Program-made: the position numbers and the translations under genes
In this document: positions 47,458-61,020 of the stretch, in pieces
Layout: every line of letters begins with the position of its first letter
How positions within the stretch are numbered: position 1 is the stretch's first letter
Notes under the pieces: model-generated
Seen by the model: only the letters and a program-made list of their open reading frames with translations
What the model was told of the DNA's origin: nothing
Database searches by the model: none
DNA from: Fodinicurvata sp. EGI_FJ10296
GTDB lineage: Bacteria > Pseudomonadota > Alphaproteobacteria > DSM-16000 > Inquilinaceae
Assembly: GCF_040712075.1 (NCBI RefSeq)
Contig: NZ_JBFCVL010000001.1
Span: forward strand, 131,501-195,500
Direction of reading: 5' to 3'
DNA length: 64,000 nucleotides

Positions 47458-48489
47458 TCACTCCGGCAGGTGGCAGGCGACGCGGCGACCGTCGGCGCGG
47501 GGGGTGAGAAGCGGGCGTTCGGCGGCGCAGATGCCGCCATCGATGATCTTCGGGCAGCGCGGGTGAAAGGGGCAGCCGCTGGGCACGTTGGTGGCGCTGG
47601 GAATGTCGCCCTGAATCGCCTCCAGTTTCAGCCCGCCCGCCTCGACGCGCGGCACGCCCGCCAGCAGCGCGCCGGTATAGGGATGCATGGGTTCGGAGAA
47701 GATGCGCGCGGTCTCGCCGGTTTCCACGATCCGGCCCAGATACATCACCGCCACCTGCTCGCACAGATACCGCACCACCGACAGATCGTGCGAGATGAAG
47801 ACATAGGTCAGCCCCAGATCGCGGCGCAATTGCTGCAGGAATTCCAGGATCTGCGCCTGAACGGAGACATCCAGCGCCGATGTCGGTTCGTCCAGGATGA
47901 TCAGCCGGGGGTCGAGGGCGACCGCCCGCGCAATGCAGACACGCTGCTTCTGGCCGCCCGACAGTTCATGCGGATAGCGGTACATGAAAATGCGCGGCAG
48001 TCCGACGATGTCCAGCAGCCGCTGGACGCGCGCGATCAGCTTCTGCCCGCGCGTACCGTCCTGCACGATGATCGGTTCGGCAATCGCATCGAAGATCGTG
48101 TGCCGGCTGTTGAGCGACGAATGCGGGTTCTGAAACACGATCTGGATTTCCCGGCGCAGGCGGCGCATTTCCTCGCCCTTCAGCGTCGTGATGTCCCGGC
48201 CGTCATAGCGGATCGACCCCGCCGTCGGCTCGATCAGGCGCAGCAACAGCCGGGCCACCGTCGATTTGCCCGAGCCGGATTCGCCCACTACGCCCATGGC
48301 CGTGCCTTTGGCGATGTCGAAGTCGACATCATCGACCGCCCGCACGATCTGCGGCGTTTGCCACGGCTTGTTGCGAAACGGAAAGTGCTTGGACAGCCCC
48401 CGAACCTGAACGAAGGCGCCGGTATCGCCGGCGTGATCGGGCTCGTGCGGATCGGGCCGGGTCGGGTCAAGCGGGGCAGTGTCAGGCAT
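47458..48489 (-). CDS. Peptide-type ABC transporter ATP-binding protein (DppF/OppF family)
   Basis: A 343-residue ATPase. Walker [15 protein letters not shown], signature [14 protein letters not shown], Walker [15 protein letters not shown], and the C-terminal oligopeptide/dipeptide extension with a cysteine-containing tail ([21 protein letters not shown]). Last gene of the importer operon, overlapping the preceding ATPase gene by 8 bp. The ABC subclass imports peptides, nickel or other small molecules; the substrate here is open. Confidence 0.93.
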
Positions 48490-49465
48490 GATGGCAGGCC
48501 ACTTCGTGATCGTCGGCCAATCGGCGCAGTTCGGGTTTCTCCCGGCGGCACAGGTCGGTCGCGCGCTCGCAGCGCGGGTTGAACCGGCACCCCGTGGGCG
48601 GGTCGAGCAGGTCGGGGATCGACCCGGGTATGCTTTTCAGCGTCACCTCGGCCTTGTCCATGCTGGGCAGCGCGGCCAGAAGCCCCTGGGTATAGGGATG
48701 ACGCGGTGCGGTCAGCAACTCGGCGGTCGGCGCTTCCTCGACCATATTCCCGGAGTACATCACCCCGATGCGGCGGCACACGGCGGCCACCGCGCCGAAG
48801 TCGTGGCTGATCATGATCACCGACAGCCCAAGCCGATCGACCAGATCGGCGATCAGCGACAGGATCTGCGCCTGAATGGTCACGTCCAGCGCCGTCGTCG
48901 GCTCGTCGGCGATCAGAAGCTGCGGCTCGCCGGACAGGGCCATGGCGATCAGCACCCGCTGGCGCATGCCGCCGGAGAGCTGATGGGGATAATTACGCAG
49001 CAGCCGTTCCGCATCGGGCAAGCGCACCTTGGTCAACAGTTCGACCGACCGCTCGCGGATTTCTACCCTGGAGGGCTTGGCGCGCCCCATCGCCGCCGCA
49101 TCGGCCCGGATCACGTCGGCCATCTGCTGGCCGACGCTGAGAACCGGGTTCAGAAAGGTCATGGGGTCCTGGAAGATCATGGCGATGCGCGCACCGCGCA
49201 GCCGCCGCCACCGTCGTTCCGACATCCCCAGCAATTCCTGCCCGTCGAAGCGGATGCTGCCCCCGGCGATCCGGGCGGGCGGGCTGGGCAACAGGCCTAG
49301 AAGACTTTTCGCCAGCACCGATTTGCCGCAACCGGTCTCGCCGACAATGCCCAGCGTTTCGCCCTGCCTGACGGTAAGGTCGATACCGTCCAGCACGCGG
49401 ATGCGGCCGTCGAAGGTGTCGAAGTCGAGCTTGTAGTCCTCCACGGTCAGTAGCGGATCGCTCAT
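48482..49465 (-). CDS. Peptide-type ABC transporter ATP-binding protein (DppD/OppD family)
   Basis: A 327-residue ATPase with Walker [15 protein letters not shown], signature [15 protein letters not shown], Walker [15 protein letters not shown] and a cysteine-containing C-terminal extension ([19 protein letters not shown]). I start at 49465 ([15 protein letters not shown]), overlapping the preceding permease stop by 4 bp; the longer open frame upstream is that permease's shadow. Confidence 0.93.
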
Positions 49466-50382
49466 CGGCCGCGGCTCCTTGGATCGAGAATGTCGCGCAG
49501 CCCGTCGCCGAACAGGTTGAAGCCGAGAACGGTGAGATAGATTGCCAGCCCCGGAAACAGCGAATACCACCACCAATCGGGCATATAGGTGCGCGCGATC
49601 GAGATCATCGCGCCCCATTCCGGCGCCGGCGGGCTGGCGCCCAGCCCGATGAAGCCCAGACCGGCGGCTGCCAGAATGGCCATGCCCATATCCATGCTGG
49701 CCTTGACGATGATCGGCGACGCGCAATTCGGCAGGATGTGGTGGAACAGGATGCGCGGCGTGCGCGCGCCGGCCGCGCGGGCCGATTCCACGAACAGCTC
49801 TTCCTTCAGCGACAGCGTCTTGCTTTCCACCAGCCGGACATAGCCGGGCCACCAGACCAGCGCCAGCGCGATGACGCAGTTCGTGATCCCCGGCCCCAGG
49901 GACGCGACGATCGCCAGCGCCAGCACCAGCGCGGGCACGCCCAGAAAGATGTCGGTGATGCGCATGATGATTTCACGCGTCCAGCCGCCGACATATCCGG
50001 CGATGATGCCCAGCGGCACACCGATGCCCGCACCGATGGCCGTGATCAGAACCCCGATCCACAGCGAGGTACTGGCCCCGATGATAACCCGGCTCAGGAT
50101 GTCGTTGCCCATTTCGTCGGTGCCGAAGGGGTGGCCCCATGATGGCGCCAGCAGGCGTTGGGACATGTTGACCGCCCCGGCGGCGTCTTCGGGATAGGGG
50201 GCGATCCACTGGCCGAACGCGGCCAGGATCAGGAACAGCACGACCAGCCCCAGCCCCAGCATCGACGAGAAGCTGCGCGAGAATAGATAGGCATACAGCC
50301 GCCACTGCCGGATGGTGCTGGCGTTGCGTTCGCGCCAGGTCAGCTGGGGGATGTCATCGGCTTCTCGTTCGCCAACACTCAT
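49462..50382 (-). CDS. Peptide-type ABC transporter permease (DppC/OppC family)
   Basis: A 306-residue permease with an N-terminal OppC extension (RLYAYLFSRSFSSMLGLGLVVLF) and the BPD_transp_1 core. HPFGTDEMGNDILSRVIIGA is the family signature, and ESARAAGARTPRILFHHILP is the ATPase-contacting loop. It shares one base pair with the preceding permease gene. Confidence 0.93.
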   Translation of the reverse strand: MSVGEREADDIPQLTWRERNASTIRQWRLYAYLFSRSFSSMLGLGLVVLFLILAAFGQWIAPYPEDAAGAVNMSQRLLAPSWGHPFGTDEMGNDILSRVIIGASTSLWIGVLITAIGAGIGVPLGIIAGYVGGWTREIIMRITDIFLGVPALVLALAIVASLGPGITNCVIALALVWWPGYVRLVESKTLSLKEELFVESARAAGARTPRILFHHILPNCASPIIVKASMDMGMAILAAAGLGFIGLGASPPAPEWGAMISIARTYMPDWWWYSLFPGLAIYLTVLGFNLFGDGLRDILDPRSRGR

Positions 50383-51392
50383 TATCCCGACTCCCTGAGC
50401 CGCGGGTCGAGCCAGATATAGGCAAGATCAACCATGAAATTGATGATCATGAAGATGAAACCGATCAGGAGCGTGGCGCCGATCACCGGCTTGAAGTCGG
50501 AATAAAGCGCCGACTCCACGGCATAGAGGCCGATGCCCGGCCAGTCGAAAACCGTTTCGACGAGAATGGTCGATCCCAGCATCCAGCCGAAACGCAGACC
50601 GACGATCGACACCGTCGGCAGCATGGCGTTCTTCAACGCATAGACGGTGACGATTCGCCAGGCCGACAGCCCGTTGGCTTTGGCCGCGAGGACGAAATCC
50701 GACTGCAGCGCCTCGATCATTTCGGCGCGGTTGACGCGCAGGATCGACGCCAGGCACGGGAACGACAGCACCACCGCCGGCATGATAATATAGGAGAGCG
50801 CCTGGGTGAAAACGTCGAACCGGCCCTGAAGAAGGCTGTCGATCAGCAGAAAATGGGTGATCGGGTCGGGCGGAAGCGTGACAAGGTTCAGCCGTCCGGA
50901 GATCGGCAGCCACCCCATCTGCACGGCGAACAGCAATTGCAGCAGAATGCCGAACCAGAAGGCCGGCAGCGCCACCCCTGAAATCGACCCGATGCGCACA
51001 ACATGGTCGAACCAGCTGTCGCGCACCACCGCCGACATGATGCCGAAGCCGACACCGAACAGGATACCAAGCCCCATGGCCACGACGACCAGTTCCAGCG
51101 TGGCCGGGAAATAGCGCAGCAATTCGTCGACCACAGGCCGGGTCGAGACGATCGACCGGCCCAGATCGCCCTGAACCAGCCCGGTCATATAGACCACGTA
51201 CTGCTCGATCAACGGCCGATCCAGCCCGTTTTGCTGGCGGACCGTTTCGACCATGGACTCGGTCGCATTGGGTCCAGCGATCAATCGGGCCGGATCGCCG
51301 GGCGCAATGTTGGTAATGGCAAAAGTGATCGTCGCCAGCCCCAGCAGCATGATGACAAGCAGCAGGAGGCGACGGGCAACGTAAATCAGCAT
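50382..51392 (-). CDS. Peptide-type ABC transporter permease (DppB/OppB family)
   Basis: A 336-residue permease. It opens with MLIYVARRLLLLVIMLLGLA as usual for DppB, has the GDLGRSIVSTRPVVDEL segment, and the ATPase-contacting loop LAAKANGLSAWRIVTVYALK. It lies 88 bp downstream of the binding-protein gene and starts the membrane part of the importer. Confidence 0.93.
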   Translation of the reverse strand: MLIYVARRLLLLVIMLLGLATITFAITNIAPGDPARLIAGPNATESMVETVRQQNGLDRPLIEQYVVYMTGLVQGDLGRSIVSTRPVVDELLRYFPATLELVVVAMGLGILFGVGFGIMSAVVRDSWFDHVVRIGSISGVALPAFWFGILLQLLFAVQMGWLPISGRLNLVTLPPDPITHFLLIDSLLQGRFDVFTQALSYIIMPAVVLSFPCLASILRVNRAEMIEALQSDFVLAAKANGLSAWRIVTVYALKNAMLPTVSIVGLRFGWMLGSTILVETVFDWPGIGLYAVESALYSDFKPVIGATLLIGFIFMIINFMVDLAYIWLDPRLRESG

Positions 51393-51480
51393 GCTGTCCC
51401 GTTCGCGGGCCGGAGGACGGTAAGGCGCCGCCCGCGCCGGATCGCGGGCGGCGGCCGGGGCCGTTTGCTAAAAGGGCCGA

Positions 51481-53070
51481 TTACTCGACATCGACCCAAA
51501 GCGGATAGAGATCAACTTCGCCGGTGAACCGGACGGGGCTGAACTGAAAGCCTTCCAACCAGTCCCGATGCGCCCAACGGCGGTTCTGAAGCATGCCGAA
51601 AATTTCCGGCGTGCCTTCCACGATCATCTCCTGGATCTCGGCATAGAGCGGTTCGCGCTCGTCCCAGTCGCTGAGCGAGCGGGCTTCCGAAATCGTGTCC
51701 CAGAGTTCCTGGTTTTCGTAGAAATGCATCGCGAAATACTGACCCCAGGAATTCTGGTGGTACTGATAGGCCACCGCATCCGGGTCGGTCGAAACCGGCG
51801 TGACAAAGACGCTGGTCATGTCCGGCGCGCTTTCCGGACTGGAACCGGCCGCGACCATGTTCGGCCACTGCTCTGGCACGATGTTCACATCGATGTTCAA
51901 CTCGGCCAGATTGCTGAGCAGCACCAGCCCGATCCGCCGCGCTTCTTCCAGACCGGCGACGTGATAGTAGTCCAGCTCGATGCCGCCGTCGGGATACTCG
52001 GACTGCGCCAGATATTCGCGCGCCAGATCCATATCCTGTCGCGGGATGCCCTCGACGTCGATATGGCCCTGGATCGCTTGCGGGAACGGGCTGGTCTGCA
52101 GTACGGCATCGCCGTTGTAGATGTCGATCAGCGCATCGTAATCCATCGCATGGGCGATCGCCTTGCGCAGATTGATATCCGCCGTCGGGCCCTGCTGGGT
52201 GTTGAACTTGATGCCGAAGGTCGTCATCCCCGCATGGTTCTGGATGACGATGCCGGGCTCGTCCTCGATCTGGCCGTAATCGTCCGAACTCAGACCCTCG
52301 GCGATGTCGATCTCGCCGCGCTGAAGGGCGGCGCGCTGGGCGGCGGGCTCGCGGATGATGCGATAGATGATCCCGGCCGGGCGGTTTTCTTCACCCTGCG
52401 GCCAGCCGCGCCAGTAATCCTCGTTCGCGACCAGTTCATACAGCACGTTCTGCTGCCACCGGCCCATGGTAAAGGGACCGCTGCCGGCGGCGTTCTCGGT
52501 CATCCATTCCGTGCCGTAGTCGCCGTCGACCTCGTTTTCCATCACCTCGGCGGGGTTGACGATGTACCACCACGGCAGGAAGGACAGGAACGGGGCATAG
52601 GGGCGGCTGAGATTGAAACGGATGGTATAGTCATCGACCACTTCGATGCCGTCCGGCTCCAGAAAATCGGCCAGCATCCAGGCCACGCCCTGGTTCAGCT
52701 CAAGGCCGCGCACGAAGGAATACCGCACGGCTTCGGCATCGACCGGGTCGCCGTTATGGAAGGTCGCGTCTTCGACCAGATTGAAGGTCCAGACCGACGC
52801 GTCTTCGTTGACGTCCCAGGATTCCGCCAGCCAGGGCTCGATTTCCGGCGGGTCGCCGACATACTTGAACAGCGCGTCATAGATCGACTGCTGCATCATG
52901 CGGGTCGACCAGTCGTAACGGACATGGGGGTCGAGCACCGGCACCTGCTGACGGCCGCCAAAAACGATGACGATGCCGTCATCGGTACGCTCGAAGGCCT
53001 GGGCCGTATCGGTCAGCGCCGTGGCCGACAAGGCGGCGGCGGCCACCGCTCCAAGGATCAATTTTCTCAT
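51481..53070 (-). CDS. Peptide-type ABC transporter substrate-binding protein (SBP family 5)
   Basis: A 529-residue periplasmic binding protein of the DppA/OppA class. The start at 53070 gives signal peptide MRKLILGAVAAAALSATALT, cut near AQAFE. Class features include VWTFNLVEDATFHNGDPVDAEAV, GSGPFTMGRWQ and the central NLRKAIAHAMDYDALI. The ligand is unknown. It lies 46 bp after the aroM-like gene on the same strand, so the operon reads aroM-like, binding protein, two permeases, two ATPases. Confidence 0.93.
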   Translation of the reverse strand: MRKLILGAVAAAALSATALTDTAQAFERTDDGIVIVFGGRQQVPVLDPHVRYDWSTRMMQQSIYDALFKYVGDPPEIEPWLAESWDVNEDASVWTFNLVEDATFHNGDPVDAEAVRYSFVRGLELNQGVAWMLADFLEPDGIEVVDDYTIRFNLSRPYAPFLSFLPWWYIVNPAEVMENEVDGDYGTEWMTENAAGSGPFTMGRWQQNVLYELVANEDYWRGWPQGEENRPAGIIYRIIREPAAQRAALQRGEIDIAEGLSSDDYGQIEDEPGIVIQNHAGMTTFGIKFNTQQGPTADINLRKAIAHAMDYDALIDIYNGDAVLQTSPFPQAIQGHIDVEGIPRQDMDLAREYLAQSEYPDGGIELDYYHVAGLEEARRIGLVLLSNLAELNIDVNIVPEQWPNMVAAGSSPESAPDMTSVFVTPVSTDPDAVAYQYHQNSWGQYFAMHFYENQELWDTISEARSLSDWDEREPLYAEIQEMIVEGTPEIFGMLQNRRWAHRDWLEGFQFSPVRFTGEVDLYPLWVDVE

Positions 53071-53116: not shown

Positions 53117-53779
53117 TTAGAGTATTTGGCGGATACCCCCCGCAACGATGCGCCGGGACAACAAGACCGGGGCCTTGACCCGGTCGGCGACACGCCGGCG
53201 CATGGCCTCGTCATAGCCCATGCAATGCATTACGATCAGATCGGCCTCGGCCAGATCGTCGGCGGCCGCCTCGAACCGATCCTCGCCATAAGGGCTGGCA
53301 TGGGTGCCCGTGACGCGGCGTCCGGGCGTTTCGCCCAGAGAAATATGCGCGATCTGGCGTTCAAGCGGCACGATGACGCCCAGATGACGCACGCCGGAGG
53401 CCAGCGCCTCGGCCAACCCATCAACGACCGCCTGGGCTTCGATCAACAGCGTATGGGACAACGGCGGCACGCGCGTACCGGTGCACAACACCACGACGGC
53501 ATCCAGCGACGGATCGTCCATCTCGCGCAGCAGACGATCGAGGCGCGCTTCGGTCCGGGCCTTGTCGATGACCACTTCGCGCCCATCGGCAAGGCGCGTC
53601 GCCAGACTTGCCGCCCCGTCGGCCGGGGCCAGATCGGCAATGGCGGCATCGTCCAGCCCATCAAGCGCGCCGCGCTCGACCACCTCGATCGGCGGCAGAT
53701 CGGCACAAATCTCCGGCACCATATCGGTTCGGGGCGACTGGCCGATGGTGACGAAAGCGATACGGCGCCGACGGGTCAT
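53117..53779 (-). CDS. AroM family protein (Asp/Glu-racemase-like fold), both putative active-site cysteines present
   Basis: A 220-residue AroM-family protein. The fold is that of the Asp/Glu/hydantoin racemase superfamily, whose enzymes use two cysteines on opposite sides of the substrate. Cys99 in VVLCTGTRVPP and Cys186 in IVMHCMGYDE are at the fitting places. The N-terminal segment IAFVTIGQSPRTDMVPEI is the family hallmark. AroM itself has no proven function. I start at 53779 (MTRRRRIAFVT). It is first in the peptide-type importer operon and paralogous to the N-terminal domain of the regulator at 56404-57339. With a hydantoinase cluster close by, a racemase-like role is plausible, unproven. 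Confidence 0.85.
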   Translation of the reverse strand: MTRRRRIAFVTIGQSPRTDMVPEICADLPPIEVVERGALDGLDDAAIADLAPADGAASLATRLADGREVVIDKARTEARLDRLLREMDDPSLDAVVVLCTGTRVPPLSHTLLIEAQAVVDGLAEALASGVRHLGVIVPLERQIAHISLGETPGRRVTGTHASPYGEDRFEAAADDLAEADLIVMHCMGYDEAMRRRVADRVKAPVLLSRRIVAGGIRQIL

Positions 53780-53855: not shown

Positions 53856-53877
53856 CCATAAGGGTATGCCCTTACAG
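53856..53877. promoter_or_regulatory. Dyad motif upstream of the aroM-importer operon
   Basis: The core TAAGGGTATGCCCTTA is an inverted repeat (TAAGGG...CCCTTA with a TATG centre), 76 bp upstream of the aroM-like start. A 22-bp window matches the motif at 57495-57516 in 19 positions. Size and symmetry suit a dimeric LuxR-type DNA-binding domain. Confidence 0.65.
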
Positions 53878-54002: not shown

Positions 54003-54233
54003 ATGACCGACAGCGCCCGTGAAAAGTTCGCGACCCAAGTGGACGCCGAGATGCTCGCCACCGTTCGGAGCCTCGCCAAGACCGAGGGGCGACAACTTCA
54101 GTCGCTTGTTGAAGAAGCGCTCGCTGATCTGATCGAAAAACGCAAGCACACTCAGCCGCGCGCCCATGTCATGGCGGCCTATCAGGCCAGTCACGGCAAA
54201 TATGCTGACCTCTACAAGAAACTGGCTGAATGA
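54003..54233 (+). CDS. Ribbon-helix-helix antitoxin partner of Doc
   Basis: A 76-residue antitoxin. Residues 8-45 (FATQVDAEMLATVRSLAKTE; GRQLQSLVEEALADLIEKR) form a ribbon-helix-helix DNA-binding domain in place of the Phd fold usually paired with Doc. The C-terminal tail MAAYQASHGKYADLYKKLAE is the probable toxin-binding part. A strong Shine-Dalgarno (CGGAGGA) precedes it, and its stop overlaps the toxin start (ATGA). Confidence 0.85.
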   Translation: MTDSAREKFATQVDAEMLATVRSLAKTEGRQLQSLVEEALADLIEKRKHTQPRAHVMAAYQASHGKYADLYKKLAE

Positions 54234-54610
54234 CGGAGTACCTGACCGTCATCGAAGTCCTCATGATCCATTCCGACCAGATCGAACGTTATGGCGGAGT
54301 CGATGGCGTGCGCGATCCGGGTCTTGTCGAAGCGGCGGTGTTTCGCCCGCAGACGGGATACTACGAAGACCTGATCGCGGAGGCGGCCGCGCTCTGGGAG
54401 AGCCTGGCCATGAACCATCCCTTCATTGACGGCAACAAGCGTGTCGCCTTCGCGGCGACCTACACGTTTCTGACCATCAACGGTCTGGAAATCAAAGAAG
54501 AGCCCGACGCGATCTATCGCTTTATCATCGAGAGCCTGGAAATGGGTGAATTCCGACATGAACGGCTTGCCGCTTGGCTGCGCGCGAACACCGGACAAAT
54601 AGGAAAGTGA
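54230..54610 (+). CDS. doc: Death-on-curing (Doc/Fic-fold) toxin
   Basis: A 126-residue toxin. The Fic-type active-site motif is HPFIDGNKRVAFAATYTFL, with the catalytic His at the start. Doc kinases phosphorylate elongation factor Tu and stop translation. N-terminal residues IEVLMIHSDQIERYGGVDGVRDPGLVEAA match the family. Translationally coupled to the antitoxin. All motif residues are present, so the toxin should be active. Confidence 0.93.
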   Translation: MTEYLTVIEVLMIHSDQIERYGGVDGVRDPGLVEAAVFRPQTGYYEDLIAEAAALWESLAMNHPFIDGNKRVAFAATYTFLTINGLEIKEEPDAIYRFIIESLEMGEFRHERLAAWLRANTGQIGK

Positions 54611-56403: not shown

Positions 56404-57339
56404 CTACAACTCAGGATGCTCCGACGAGAGCAGCAGCCGGATCAGCGCGGTGGAGCTGACGACCTCCATCTTGGACAGCACCTTGGCGCGGTGGATTTCC
56501 ACCGTGCGCGGGCTGATGCTCAGTTGCAGGCCGATGGATTTGTTCGGCAGGCCTTCGGCGATCAGCGACATCACCTGGCGTTCGCGCGGGGTCAGGCGCT
56601 GCAGCCGGTCGGCCAGGATGTCGGCGCCGCCCAGGGGCCGGGCGACGGCGCCGCCGGTCAGTTCCGGCGCCAGCAGCAGGCGCACCGCCCCGGCGATGAC
56701 GCGGCGGGCCAGAACCACCGGTTTTCCGGACGCTTTGCTGACAACCGCGCGGTCATGCTCGTCAAAGGTGACGGCGTTCAACACGATGATATCGCATCCC
56801 GACAGATCTTCGGCGGCCCGCGCCAGGGCATCCGCGTCGCCGGCCGCAGCCGAGGTCAGGCGGAACTCGACGCCCTCGACGCCGTCAAGCGTCGTCACCG
56901 GCACCTGCCGGGCGATCGGCTGGATGACGCCGACGGTCTGTCCGGCGCTGACCAGTGCGTTGACCGCGCTTTCCAGCGCGCGCTGGCCGTTGACGGTCGG
57001 CGACCGGCTTTCGAAATTGCGCACCAGTCCGGTCGACAGCAATACCACCAGGTCGAAATGCTTCTCGTCGAGCCCGGCCATGAGTTTCGCCAGTCTTTCG
57101 CCGATGCGCGACTTCGAAATGACGACCTGCCGCCCGGATCGAAGCAGTGTGGAGAATCCCGGATCGCCCGGTTCGGGGGCGAGACCGGCGATTGCCTGCT
57201 CGTCCAACCCGTCGAGCGCGCCGAACTGATGCACGTCGTATGGTTCCGGCAAATGGGCCAGAACGTCCGGAACCAGATCGTTTCGAGGCGTCTGCCCACC
57301 CGTAACGATGGCGACCCGGATGCGCTTCTCGAATGTCAT
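56404..57339 (-). CDS. AroM-LuxR fusion transcriptional regulator
   Basis: A 311-residue two-domain protein. Residues 1-225 form an AroM-family domain (RVAIVTGGQTPRNDLVPDV; FGALDGLDEQAIAGL) clearly homologous to the protein at 53117-53779. Residues 248-305 form a LuxR/FixJ-type helix-turn-helix (LTPRERQVMSLIAEGLPNKS; SISPRTVEIHRAKVLSKM). Both racemase-type cysteines are gone: Ser102 in LLSTGLV and Ala189 in VLNAVTFDE. The enzyme fold therefore probably serves as a ligand sensor. I start at 57339 (MTFEKRIRVA). It is divergent from the DUF917-hydantoinase operon and near a dyad shared with the aroM operon. Confidence 0.88.
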   Translation of the reverse strand: MTFEKRIRVAIVTGGQTPRNDLVPDVLAHLPEPYDVHQFGALDGLDEQAIAGLAPEPGDPGFSTLLRSGRQVVISKSRIGERLAKLMAGLDEKHFDLVVLLSTGLVRNFESRSPTVNGQRALESAVNALVSAGQTVGVIQPIARQVPVTTLDGVEGVEFRLTSAAAGDADALARAAEDLSGCDIIVLNAVTFDEHDRAVVSKASGKPVVLARRVIAGAVRLLLAPELTGGAVARPLGGADILADRLQRLTPRERQVMSLIAEGLPNKSIGLQLSISPRTVEIHRAKVLSKMEVVSSTALIRLLLSSEHPEL

Positions 57340-57494: not shown

Positions 57495-57516
57495 CCATAG
57501 GGGCATGCCCTTATAG
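57495..57516. promoter_or_regulatory. Dyad motif upstream of the DUF917-hydantoinase operon
   Basis: The core TAGGGGCATGCCCTTA matches TAAGGGTATGCCCTTA at 53856-53877, and the flanking CCA and AG are shared. It lies 54 bp before the DUF917 start and 155 bp before the divergent AroM-LuxR start. The AroM-LuxR protein is the obvious candidate to bind it. Confidence 0.65.
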
Positions 57517-57570: not shown

Positions 57571-58647
57571 ATGCGTGAGTTTGCCGTAGACGAGATCGAA
57601 CCCCTGGCGATCGGCGCCTGGATTCTGGGCACCGGCGGCGGTGGCAGCCCCTATCTTCATCAGCTCAACGTCAAGAAGCTGTACGATCAGGGCCATCGCA
57701 TCCAGTTGATGGACTCCTCGGAACTGGCCGATGACGACATGGTCGCGGTGGTTTCCAAGATGGGCGCGCCGCTGGTCGGGCTGGAACGCCTGGTCGACCC
57801 GGCGATGATGGCGCGTGCGGTGCGGATGATGGAAGCCTATCTCGGCATTCGTTTTCGCGCCGTCATGAGTGTCGAGATCGGCGGCGGCAACGCACTTTCG
57901 CCCTTTCTGGCCGCGGCGATTGCCGACATCCCGGTGGTCGACGCCGATGCCATGGGCCGGGCCTATCCCGAAGCGCAGATGACCAGCTTTGCCATCGGCG
58001 ATTTGCCGATGTTTCCACTGACCCTGGCCGATGTGCGCGACAATGACGTGATTGTCGCCCGCGCCGCGTCGTGGAAATGGATGGAGCGTATTTCGCGCAA
58101 GGTCTGCACCGAGGTCGGGTCGACCGCCGCGACCTGCAAGGCCCCGCGCACGGGCCGCGAAGTCAAGGATTGGGGCATTCAGAATACCGTCACCAAGGCG
58201 ATCGCCATCGGGCGCACGATCATGGAAGCCCGGCGCGTCCATGACGATCCGGTGGCCGCGCTGGTCCGCGACCATGCGGGCAAGACGGTGTTCGTCGGCA
58301 AGATCGCCGATGTCTCGCGCGAGACAACCGGCGGGTTTCTGCGTGGCACGGCCGTAGTCGAAGGGCTGGACGGCGATCGCGGGCACCGAATGGAACTGGC
58401 CTTCCAGAACGAATTCGCGGTCGGCTGGATCGACGGCGAACCGGCGATCATGACCCCGGACCTGATCTGCGTGCTCGACAGCGTGACCGGCGACGCGATC
58501 GGCACCGAAACCCTGCGCTATGGCCAGCGGGTCAGCGTCGTGGCCCTGCCCGCGCCGGAAATCCTGTTGTCGCCCAAGGGGTTGACCCATGTCGGCCCGC
58601 GCGCGTTCGGCTATGACCTCGACTTCAAATCGGTGTTTGCAGCATGA
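57571..58647 (+). CDS. DUF917 family protein (hydantoinase-associated)
   Basis: A 358-residue cytoplasmic protein of the DUF917 family, which typically sits beside hydantoinase/oxoprolinase genes and is presumed to act with them. Seen are the N-terminal IGAWILGTGGGGSPYLHQL, SVEIGGGNALSPFLAAAI, ADIPVVDADAMGRAYPEAQM and a C-terminal VLDSVTGDAIGTETLRYGQ. No direct activity has been established to my knowledge. Its stop overlaps the hydantoinase start (ATGA), so the two products are made together. Confidence 0.92.
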   Translation: MREFAVDEIEPLAIGAWILGTGGGGSPYLHQLNVKKLYDQGHRIQLMDSSELADDDMVAVVSKMGAPLVGLERLVDPAMMARAVRMMEAYLGIRFRAVMSVEIGGGNALSPFLAAAIADIPVVDADAMGRAYPEAQMTSFAIGDLPMFPLTLADVRDNDVIVARAASWKWMERISRKVCTEVGSTAATCKAPRTGREVKDWGIQNTVTKAIAIGRTIMEARRVHDDPVAALVRDHAGKTVFVGKIADVSRETTGGFLRGTAVVEGLDGDRGHRMELAFQNEFAVGWIDGEPAIMTPDLICVLDSVTGDAIGTETLRYGQRVSVVALPAPEILLSPKGLTHVGPRAFGYDLDFKSVFAA

Positions 58648-60197
58648 AGAGAATCGGAATCGATGTCGGCGGCACCAACACGGATGCCGTCCTGATCAGT
58701 GCGGACACCATCGTCGCCGGGGTCAAGGCCACAACAACGGAAGATGTCCTGACAGGCGTCTCGAACAGCCTGGCTGCGCTGAAGGACAAAGTGGGCGGTG
58801 AGGCGCTGACGCAGGCCGACGCGGTCATGATCGGCACCACGCATTTCACCAATGCGGTGATCGAGCGCAAGCATCTCAACCGTGTCGCGGCCATCCGCAT
58901 CGCCCTGCCGGCGGCCGCCAGCCTGGAACCGGCAGTCGACTGGCCCGCCGATCTCCGCGCCTCGGTCGATCCGGCGATTTTCATGGTCGAAGGCGGTCAC
59001 GAATATGACGGCCGGCCGCTGGTGCCGCTGGACGAGGACGCGCTGCGCCAGGCGGCGCGCGACATCGCGCGGATGGGCATCCGGTCGGTGGCGATCACGG
59101 CCCTGTTCTCGCCCCTGACCAGCGCCTGCGAAACCCGCGCGGCGGAAATTCTGGCGGAAGAATGCCCCGACGCCGCGATCACCCTGTCGCACACGCTGGG
59201 CCGGATCGGCCTGCTGGAGCGCGAGAACGTCGCCATCATGAACGCGGCGCTGAAGGATCTGGGCGCGCGTACCGTGTCGGCCTTTCGCGATGCCCTGGCC
59301 CAGGCCGGACTGCATGCGCCGTTCTATCTGACCCAGAACGACGGCACCGTCATGCTGGCCGAGGTCGCGGCAGCAAACCCGGTTTACAGTTTTGCTTCCG
59401 GCCCGACGAACTCCATGCGCGGCTCTTCCGCCCTGTCCGGCCTGACCGACGCCATGGTCGTGGATGTCGGCGGCACTACCAGCGACGTCGGTGTGCTGAT
59501 CAACGGTTTCCCGCGCGAAGCCAATGGCGTGGTCGAGATCGGCGGCGTGCGCACGCTGTTCCGGATGCCCGATCTGCTGCCCTTCGGCCTGGGCGGCGGC
59601 ACGATCGTCGACCCCGACACCGGCCGCATCGGCCCGCAGTCGGTGGGGTATCGCCTGACCGAACAGGCCCTCGTCTTCGGCGGCGATATCCTGACGGCAA
59701 CGGACATCGCGGTGGCCGCCGGGCGCATCGAACTGGGCGACCCCGACCGGGTGCGCCATCTGGACCGCCGGTTTGTCGACGATATCATGAGCCGCATTCG
59801 GGCGATGTTCGAAGAACGGGTCGACCGGATGAAGACATCGGCCGACGACGCCGTTCTGATCGCGTCCGGCGGCGGGGCATTCCTGGTTCCCGATGAGCTC
59901 GACGGCATAAGCGAGATCGTGCGCCTGGAACATGCCGGCGTGGCCAATGCGGTCGGCGCGGCGATGGCCCAGGTCTCCGGCGAAGTGGATCAGGTGTTTT
60001 CCGGCGTCTCGCGGGCCGAGGCACTGGCGCAGGCGAAAGCCGGCGCCGAAGCCCGGGCGGTCGAAGGCGGCGCCGATCCGACCACGCTGAAGACCGTCGA
60101 TGTCGAGGATATTCCGCTGTCCTATCTGCCGGGCGAAGCCCGCCGCGTGCACACGCGCGTCGTTGGCGATATCGCGGCCATCACCGCGGCGCGTTAG
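58644..60197 (+). CDS. Hydantoinase/oxoprolinase family protein (HyuA-like)
   Basis: A 517-residue member of the ATP-dependent hydantoinase/5-oxoprolinase family, with an actin-like ATPase fold. IGIDVGGTNTDAVLI at residues 4-18 and VVDVGGTTSDVGVL around 272-285 are the two phosphate-binding loops. VIGTTHFTNAVIERKHLNRV matches the family. The subunit would open a five-membered lactam or hydantoin ring using ATP. No separate HyuB subunit is present; DUF917 takes that place in the operon. Confidence 0.92.
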   Translation: MKRIGIDVGGTNTDAVLISADTIVAGVKATTTEDVLTGVSNSLAALKDKVGGEALTQADAVMIGTTHFTNAVIERKHLNRVAAIRIALPAAASLEPAVDWPADLRASVDPAIFMVEGGHEYDGRPLVPLDEDALRQAARDIARMGIRSVAITALFSPLTSACETRAAEILAEECPDAAITLSHTLGRIGLLERENVAIMNAALKDLGARTVSAFRDALAQAGLHAPFYLTQNDGTVMLAEVAAANPVYSFASGPTNSMRGSSALSGLTDAMVVDVGGTTSDVGVLINGFPREANGVVEIGGVRTLFRMPDLLPFGLGGGTIVDPDTGRIGPQSVGYRLTEQALVFGGDILTATDIAVAAGRIELGDPDRVRHLDRRFVDDIMSRIRAMFEERVDRMKTSADDAVLIASGGGAFLVPDELDGISEIVRLEHAGVANAVGAAMAQVSGEVDQVFSGVSRAEALAQAKAGAEARAVEGGADPTTLKTVDVEDIPLSYLPGEARRVHTRVVGDIAAITAAR

Positions 60198-60345: not shown

Positions 60346-61020
60346 ATGAGTGACGGCTTGCAGGCCATCGCGCCGGGCGAAACGCTGCGCGCGGCGATCA
60401 ATCTGGGCAACCGGGCTCTGGCGCGGGAAGAAAATGGCGAACTTGGCGGCGTCACGCCGGCCCTTGCCAAGCGGCTGGCGGCGGAGATCGGCAAGCCGGT
60501 GGAGTTCGTGGTCTATGACGGTGCCGGCAAGACATTCAAGGACGCCGGCAAGGATCGCTGGGATGTCGGCTTCCTGGCAATCGACCCGGAGCGCGCGAAG
60601 ACGGTTTCGTTCACCCGACCCTATAAAGAGATCATCGCGACCTATGCGGTGCGCGACGACAGCCCCATCCAGTCGATCGAGGAGGCGGACAGGCCCGGCA
60701 TCAAGATCGTGGTCGGTACCGGCTCGGCCTATGACCTCTACCTGACCAAGGCGCTGGAACATGCCGAGCTTATCCGCATCGCGGATCCCGGCGAGTCCTT
60801 CGCACGGTTCCGGCAGGGCGACGGCGACCTCGTCGGCGGCGTGCTGCAAAGCCTGCAAAAAGCCTTCCCGGAAGGATCGGGGGTCCGGATTCTGCCCGGC
60901 CGGATTACCACGGTGCGCCAGGCGATGATGCTGCCCTATCACGACGCCGATCGGATCGCGGCCCTCGACGCCTTTGTCGAATGCGCGATCGCGGACGGGT
61001 TCGTCGCGGCAAACGACTAA
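60346..61020 (+). CDS. Family-3 solute-binding-type protein without a signal peptide
   Basis: A 224-residue protein with the amino-acid-binding SBP_bac_3 fold: LGGVTPALAKRLAAEIGKPV, WDVGFLAIDPERAKTVSFTR and IKIVVGTGSAYDLYLTKAL. The start at 60346 has a clear Shine-Dalgarno (CAGGAGGA). Neither this start nor the upstream in-frame extension to 60259 encodes a signal peptide, and no permease or ATPase follows. It may therefore be cytoplasmic and act as a ligand-binding or enzyme-like protein with the hydantoinase pair, or it may be an orphan. Confidence 0.8.
   Translation: MSDGLQAIAPGETLRAAINLGNRALAREENGELGGVTPALAKRLAAEIGKPVEFVVYDGAGKTFKDAGKDRWDVGFLAIDPERAKTVSFTRPYKEIIATYAVRDDSPIQSIEEADRPGIKIVVGTGSAYDLYLTKALEHAELIRIADPGESFARFRQGDGDLVGGVLQSLQKAFPEGSGVRILPGRITTVRQAMMLPYHDADRIAALDAFVECAIADGFVAAND

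Follow-up and report, generated by a model that had tools for sequence, protein, structure and literature searches.

Enzyme-derived sensors are a known principle in bacterial transcription. In the ROK-family repressors (NagC, Mlc), an enzyme-fold sensor that has lost catalysis is joined to a helix-turn-helix (HTH) and controls the pathway for the ancestral substrate class. LuxR-type regulators, for their part, are mostly activators. AroM has carried its name since 1986. The members of this family, like the DUF917 proteins, are experimentally uncharacterized, and both have been reported, together with hydantoin racemases, to be enriched in cyclodipeptide-oxidase clusters (PMC11055893).

Here we describe a protein that joins an AroM domain to a LuxR/FixJ-type HTH and that is encoded within a stretch of 64,000 nucleotides from the alphaproteobacterium Fodinicurvata sp. 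EGI_FJ10296 (hereafter, the window). The component parts are known families. A sequence-only reading of the window knew of no described regulator class with this architecture. In agreement with this, we found no description of an AroM-LuxR or AroM-HTH regulator in the open-access literature, and no name in the annotated records that we examined recognizes one. Because the fusion recurs among Alphaproteobacteria in the company of one small catabolic operon whose promoter bears a matching DNA site, it very probably represents an undescribed kind of metabolite-sensing gene switch.

The Fusion Protein and Its Predicted Fold

The fusion gene occupies positions 56404–57339 on the minus strand (ATG at 57339, stop codon at 56404–56406) and encodes 311 amino acids, as supported by its translation, Pfam matches, and 33 further fusions. 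Residues 9–220 (56680–57315, minus strand) form the AroM domain, of the Asp/Glu/hydantoin-racemase fold (PF07302, E = 1.3e-47; 162.6 bits against a cut-off of 23.8, covering profile positions 1–216 of 219), and residues 248–302 (56434–56598, minus strand) form the LuxR/GerE HTH (PF00196, E = 4.3e-19; 68.3 bits against a curated cut-off of 23.5). The score against the NCBIfam AroM-type equivalog NF007788 (PRK10481) is 145.3 bits, under its curated cut-off of 198. The HTH is nearest to that of FixJ (NF006900 FixJ, 8e-21; FixJ 1x3u, E = 3.6e-16). In Pfam searches the fusion matches neither a receiver domain, residues 9–220 being AroM, nor the autoinducer-binding domain of quorum-sensing LuxR proteins. 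It is 39% identical over 221 amino acids to the stand-alone AroM encoded 2.6 kb away on the same strand (53779–53117). The sequence-only reading was therefore right about the coordinates of the gene, its AroM and GerE domains within one open reading frame, and its paralogy to the neighboring AroM.

The racemase-like fold proposed in that reading also finds support. A profile built from stand-alone AroMs has hydantoin racemase 2eq5 among its matches (E = 1.3e-4), and the two AroM cysteine columns align with cysteines of that protein. AlphaFold (AF2) models of the fusion (pLDDT 89.5, pTM 0.75) and of the stand-alone AroM (pLDDT 93.9, pTM 0.89) both match structures of the Asp/Glu-racemase superfamily, which suggests a shared fold at the level of prediction. 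Foldseek matches of the fusion model include hydantoin racemase 2eq5 (2.9e-6), arylmalonate decarboxylase, maleate isomerase, and glutamate racemase; over the two models, the matches comprise hydantoin, allantoin, and glutamate racemases, arylmalonate decarboxylase, and maleate isomerase.

Distribution and Origin

The loci that we read contain 34 distinct fusions, the window's included, from at least five alphaproteobacterial families. Because a search of genome contigs with the protein query (P0002) gave only LuxR-domain matches (37–44% over about 50 residues), we used whole-genome PF07302 searches instead. By this approach, 14 of the 385 genomes examined in the class have AroM and 8 of those 14 have fusions (nine proteins); searches in the families of three fusion-bearing genomes added further fusions. 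A tblastn search added plasmid-borne relatives that match over their full length, one in Neorhizobium sp. NCHU2750 (50% identity) and others in Ketogulonicigenium vulgare and Shinella sp. HZN7. Their records list them as "hypothetical protein" or "AroM family protein." Neither a phylum-wide sample nor a gammaproteobacterial class sample yielded a fusion beyond the Alphaproteobacteria; AroM itself occurs in 1 of the 369 genomes of the latter sample, and plasmids of Klebsiella and Paenibacillus carry stand-alone AroM only. No AroM turned up in 16 close relatives of the window genome that were searched at the family and order levels. The cluster is thus patchy in its distribution, and it has possibly moved horizontally.

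In a tree of AroM domains built with both cysteine columns masked, all fusions form a single clade (ultrafast bootstrap 99, SH-aLRT 89, 100% of 200 bootstrap trees). As drawn with a midpoint root, the tree nests this clade among stand-alone alphaproteobacterial AroMs, the window's own included, and the direction of change from stand-alone AroM to fusion accordingly rests on midpoint rooting.

Loss of the Cysteine Pair and Retention of the Site

The sequence-only reading had placed Ser102 and Ala189 of the fusion at the positions of Cys99 and Cys186 in AroM and had argued that the binding site was kept while catalysis was lost. The multiple alignment confirms both replacements (codons 57034–57036 and 56773–56775, respectively, minus strand) and extends the argument to the whole fusion clade. 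Both AroM cysteines are missing in 34/34 fusions, the two positions being occupied by Ser/Ser in 19, Met/Ser in 13, and Ser/Ala in 2. Among 18 non-redundant fusions, either cysteine is kept in 0/18, and ten other residues (G13, Q14, P16, R17, G37, D40, T100, G101, P138, and Q142 in AroM numbering) are kept at 89–100%; the conserved AroM motifs GQxPR, G-x-L-D, TG, and P-x3-Q are likewise retained at 89–100%. The alignment therefore supports the view that the AroM domain of the fusions has lost the catalytic cysteine pair and has retained what is predicted to be a conserved small-molecule site. The change from cysteine to serine in many fusions is by itself no proof that all activity is gone.

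Both cysteines are found in 56 of 63 stand-alone AroMs and the second in all 63; the seven exceptions are all enterobacterial. The assignment of these cysteines to AroM stands for most other members of the family and fails for the AroM of Escherichia coli K-12 and its enterobacterial relatives, which have serine at the first position, so that the pair is typical of most AroMs and not of the founding member. E. coli-type AroMs (K-12 aroM, L125:2429-3106; L048–L051 and L053–L055) have lost the first cysteine together with the residues of GQxPR, LD, TG, and P-x3-Q. The enterobacterial exceptions also lack Q14, R17, D40, G101, and Q142, and the fusions are their mirror image in that they keep those five. 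The founding member is hence a poor guide to the chemistry of the family. A megablast of enterobacterial AroM against E. coli gave no match, and the K-12 gene was then read by accession. One candidate fusion with both cysteines (L116_13484) was rejected because it is a stand-alone AroM whose start had been called too far upstream.

Gene Neighborhood

The fusion gene is divergent from a gene for a DUF917/S-Me-THD-like protein (57571–58647, plus strand; PF06032, 4e-53, and PF20906, 2.6e-66), which is followed by one for a HyuA-type hydantoinase/oxoprolinase of 517 amino acids (58644–60197, plus strand; PF05378, 3.1e-39, and PF01968, 2.2e-27). This order is found in the window, in the three plasmids named above, and in nearly all genome loci examined, and the synteny marks both genes as likely targets. 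The window DUF917 protein scores 110 bits against NCBI thiohydantoin desulfurase models, far below their cut-offs of 450 bits.

An AroM gene and a peptide-type ABC importer are often found on the other side of the fusion. The stand-alone AroM of the window, with Cys99 and Cys186 (53117–53779, minus strand, ATG at 53779; PF07302, 3.4e-59), is followed by a peptide/nickel-type ABC importer comprising SBP5, two permeases, and two ATPases (47458–53070, minus strand; Pfam matches of SBP5 and the first permease), and we regard the two as a likely target operon. The importer has the same place downstream of AroM in three other loci (L087, L094, and L097), and in the Neorhizobium locus (L087) the order HyuA-DUF917/fusion-AroM-SBP5-permeases-ATPase is intact. 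Three genomes (G182, G278, and G398) have the fusion and no stand-alone AroM; thus, the constant partner of the fusion is DUF917-HyuA rather than AroM.

Several peculiarities of these clusters deserve mention. In the window, a ribbon-helix-helix/Fic-Doc pair resembling a toxin-antitoxin system (54003–54610) lies, with further genes, between the fusion and AroM, which are contiguous in the Neorhizobium locus. Downstream of HyuA, at 60349–61020, is a family 3 solute-binding-protein domain whose N-terminus, MSDGLQAIAPGETL, has no obvious signal peptide, and the product is possibly a cytoplasmic binding protein. Tandem DUF917 duplicates precede HyuA in one genome family (L095, L096, L105, L106, L108–L110, and L116–L119). 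Four genomes of one family (G354, G403, G407, and G416; loci L097 and L112–L114) carry two AroM-LuxR paralogs per cluster, of which one faces DUF917-HyuA and the other faces AroM-ABC beside DUF1177.

Predicted Operators

Pattern searches of the window and the genome identified a predicted operator, ATAGGGGCATGCCCTTAT, at 57497–57514 between the fusion and DUF917 genes, with its center 166 bp from the ATG of the fusion and 65 bp from that of DUF917; a site is present in 32/34 homologous regions. A second predicted operator, ATAAGGGTATGCCCTTAC, precedes the AroM-ABC operon at 53858–53875, the distance to the AroM ATG being about 87 bp; the Neorhizobium locus (L087) has the same paired arrangement. 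In shuffled versions of the window, matches with no more than 3 mismatches number 0.07 on average. Within the 4.83-Mb genome, ATAGGGGCATGCCCTTAT and ATAAGGGTATGCCCTTAC are the sole two sites with under 3 mismatches, and the remaining matches to the palindrome, with 3 mismatches, are at control level.

The 18-bp palindrome is of the FixJ type. In its generic form it occurs once in 32/34 fusion intergenic regions, whereas the background density is 0.069 per kb. In a thinned set, the generic pattern has a site in 22/24 regions compared with 0.32 on average in dinucleotide shuffles. These counts are partly circular, as the pattern was itself derived from the sites, and many loci are close relatives; for both reasons the numbers overstate the significance. 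We also used the consensus of one family alone, over 14 positions, as the query in promoters of other families. The best match of this held-out consensus has 3–4 mismatches of 14 in 8/8 promoters of another family, a level equaled, for each, by about 6% of shuffled regions, and 2 mismatches of 14 in Shinella. The window group and two other groups (f128 and f148) were not individually significant in this test, and the site form of the window group has changed.

Site forms differ by lineage: those of most lineages are similar to ATACGTN6ACGTAT, those of Neorhizobium and Ketogulonicigenium are of the ATAAGGG and ATAGGGG types, and mixed forms with two different half-sites, such as GTAAGGGCTTTTACGTAT, occur where the fusion faces AroM. 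In genomes without a stand-alone AroM, a second site lies upstream of the ABC operon (L092, L093, and L099). No palindrome was found in two loci (L102 and L103) that contain DUF917-HyuA, AroM, and the ABC operon and no fusion. In Shinella (L089:11748 and 12758), a second predicted operator precedes a gene for an OPT/YSL-type transporter that adjoins the fusion. The Sinorhizobium meliloti FixJ box, TAAGTAATTTCCCTTA, as quoted in PMC4999443 (citing Kurashima-Ito 2005), fits the same pattern, which is expected given that the HTH of the fusion is of the FixJ type.

Promoter scans found no sigma-70-like promoter at either predicted operator in the window. The distance between site and DUF917 ranges by lineage from 62 to 190 bp, and in some lineages 7 to 45 bp separate the site from the start of the fusion itself. 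The distances in the window (65 bp to the DUF917 ATG and about 87 bp to the AroM ATG) are compatible with activation, and sites 7 to 45 bp from the fusion's own start are compatible with autorepression. With no promoter placed and with site positions that vary between lineages, these distances are no guide to the sign of regulation.

Proposed Mode of Action and Alternatives

The fusion itself, its origin in one clade, the loss of the cysteines, the retained site residues, the synteny, and the conserved palindromes, all of them features of the sequences, lead us to propose with good confidence that it is a one-component, pathway-specific regulator in which a de-catalyzed AroM sensor and a FixJ-type HTH control the import and breakdown of a cyclic compound. 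The regulatory role suggested in the sequence-only reading gains new support from the conserved divergent synteny and the conserved operator-like palindrome, and it is the sensor function that we infer. The sensor domain would have descended from a stand-alone AroM, keeping its conserved site and losing both catalytic cysteines, and the FixJ-type LuxR HTH would serve as output. The protein would most likely bind, as a dimer, to the 18-bp palindrome, whose inverted half-sites read TAnGnn, both between the fusion and DUF917 genes and ahead of the AroM-ABC importer operon. Its ligand may be a cyclic, hydantoin- or cyclized-peptide-like compound or a pathway intermediate on which AroM itself would act. 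Occupation of the dead site by this ligand would most likely switch on the genes for import and breakdown; we infer activation rather than repression. On this view, the regulator would respond to a substrate or intermediate from the DUF917-HyuA pathway, and its control would extend to its own gene as well as to that pathway and the importer.

The ownership of the palindromes is open to another explanation, namely that the host has a FixJ-like two-component response regulator to which they belong, the fusion being an adventitious neighbor or a competitor for the same sites. The FixJ box quoted above does match the pattern, and full-length FixJ-like response regulators are encoded in most genomes tested, although those of the window genome score 217 and 211 bits, below the curated cut-off of 255 bits. 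A host regulator of this kind, however, does not readily explain why the only two close sites in the window genome both flank the presumed target operons of the fusion, why the two related loci without a fusion (L102 and L103) have no site, or why site forms vary by lineage (ATAAGGG, ATACGTG, mixed) while the promoters stay the same. These findings weaken the case for a FixJ-like response regulator as the owner of the sites, and we consider it improbable.

The nature of the AroM domain in our proposed regulator can likewise be questioned. If the domain were still an enzyme with cysteine-independent chemistry, the protein would be a bifunctional trigger enzyme and not a pure sensor. Most conserved residues other than the cysteines are retained, and serine is present at one or both of the two cysteine positions in 34/34 fusions; yet both cysteines are gone in every one of the 34, and replacements as non-uniform as Ser/Ser, Met/Ser, and Ser/Ala suit a lost catalytic need better than an exchange of one residue for another. 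We give this explanation very little weight. The domain might also serve for dimerization or protein docking alone and report on the state of the pathway enzymes rather than on a small molecule, which would be in keeping with the frequent proximity of AroM and the fusion and with the lack of experimental characterization of AroM proteins (PMC11055893). This too seems unlikely, as fusions exist in genomes without a stand-alone AroM (G182, G278, and G398) and the most conserved loop residues of the family (GQxPR, LD, TG, and P-x3-Q) are kept, for which a pure scaffold would have no need.

We therefore favor a de-catalyzed sensor and, going further and with less assurance, the hypothesis that the fusions are a new class of one-component regulators in which an AroM/hydantoin-racemase sensor without catalysis, acting through its own FixJ-like operator, controls the uptake and opening of cyclic amides and senses the substrate of the AroM reaction. 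If this is true, knowing what the regulator binds would show what the uncharacterized AroM family does. AroM has gone without an assigned function since it was named, and a regulator that has the AroM site and probably no turnover offers a handle on the AroM ligand through binding assays alone. The fusions would also add an example of an enzyme recruited as a transcription factor's sensor, one whose single origin can be traced and whose living, cysteine-containing relatives are adjacent for comparison. Finally, their recognition sets right records in which a regulator is listed as "AroM family protein."

Comparison with Known Systems

The ROK-family repressors resemble the fusion, as we read it, in their layout of a dead-enzyme sensor and an HTH, but the enzyme fold and the HTH are different ones and there is no sequence relation. 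With the Asp/Glu/hydantoin racemase superfamily (2eq5, glutamate racemase, arylmalonate decarboxylase, and maleate isomerase) the fusion shares its predicted fold and, through the AroM profile, sequence similarity in which both cysteine positions are aligned; unlike these enzymes, it lacks the catalytic cysteine pair and has a DNA-binding output. The AroM family (PF07302, including E. coli AroM and the product of 53117–53779 in the window) has in common with it the N-terminal 220 residues, the fold, and GQxPR with other conserved residues, whereas the fusion adds an HTH and has neither cysteine. With the LuxR/FixJ-type regulators (GerE, PF00196) it shares the C-terminal HTH, which is nearest to that of FixJ, and its predicted operator resembles in form the FixJ box quoted above for S. 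meliloti; in contrast to them, it has neither a receiver nor an autoinducer-binding domain, and an AroM domain would serve as the sensor instead.
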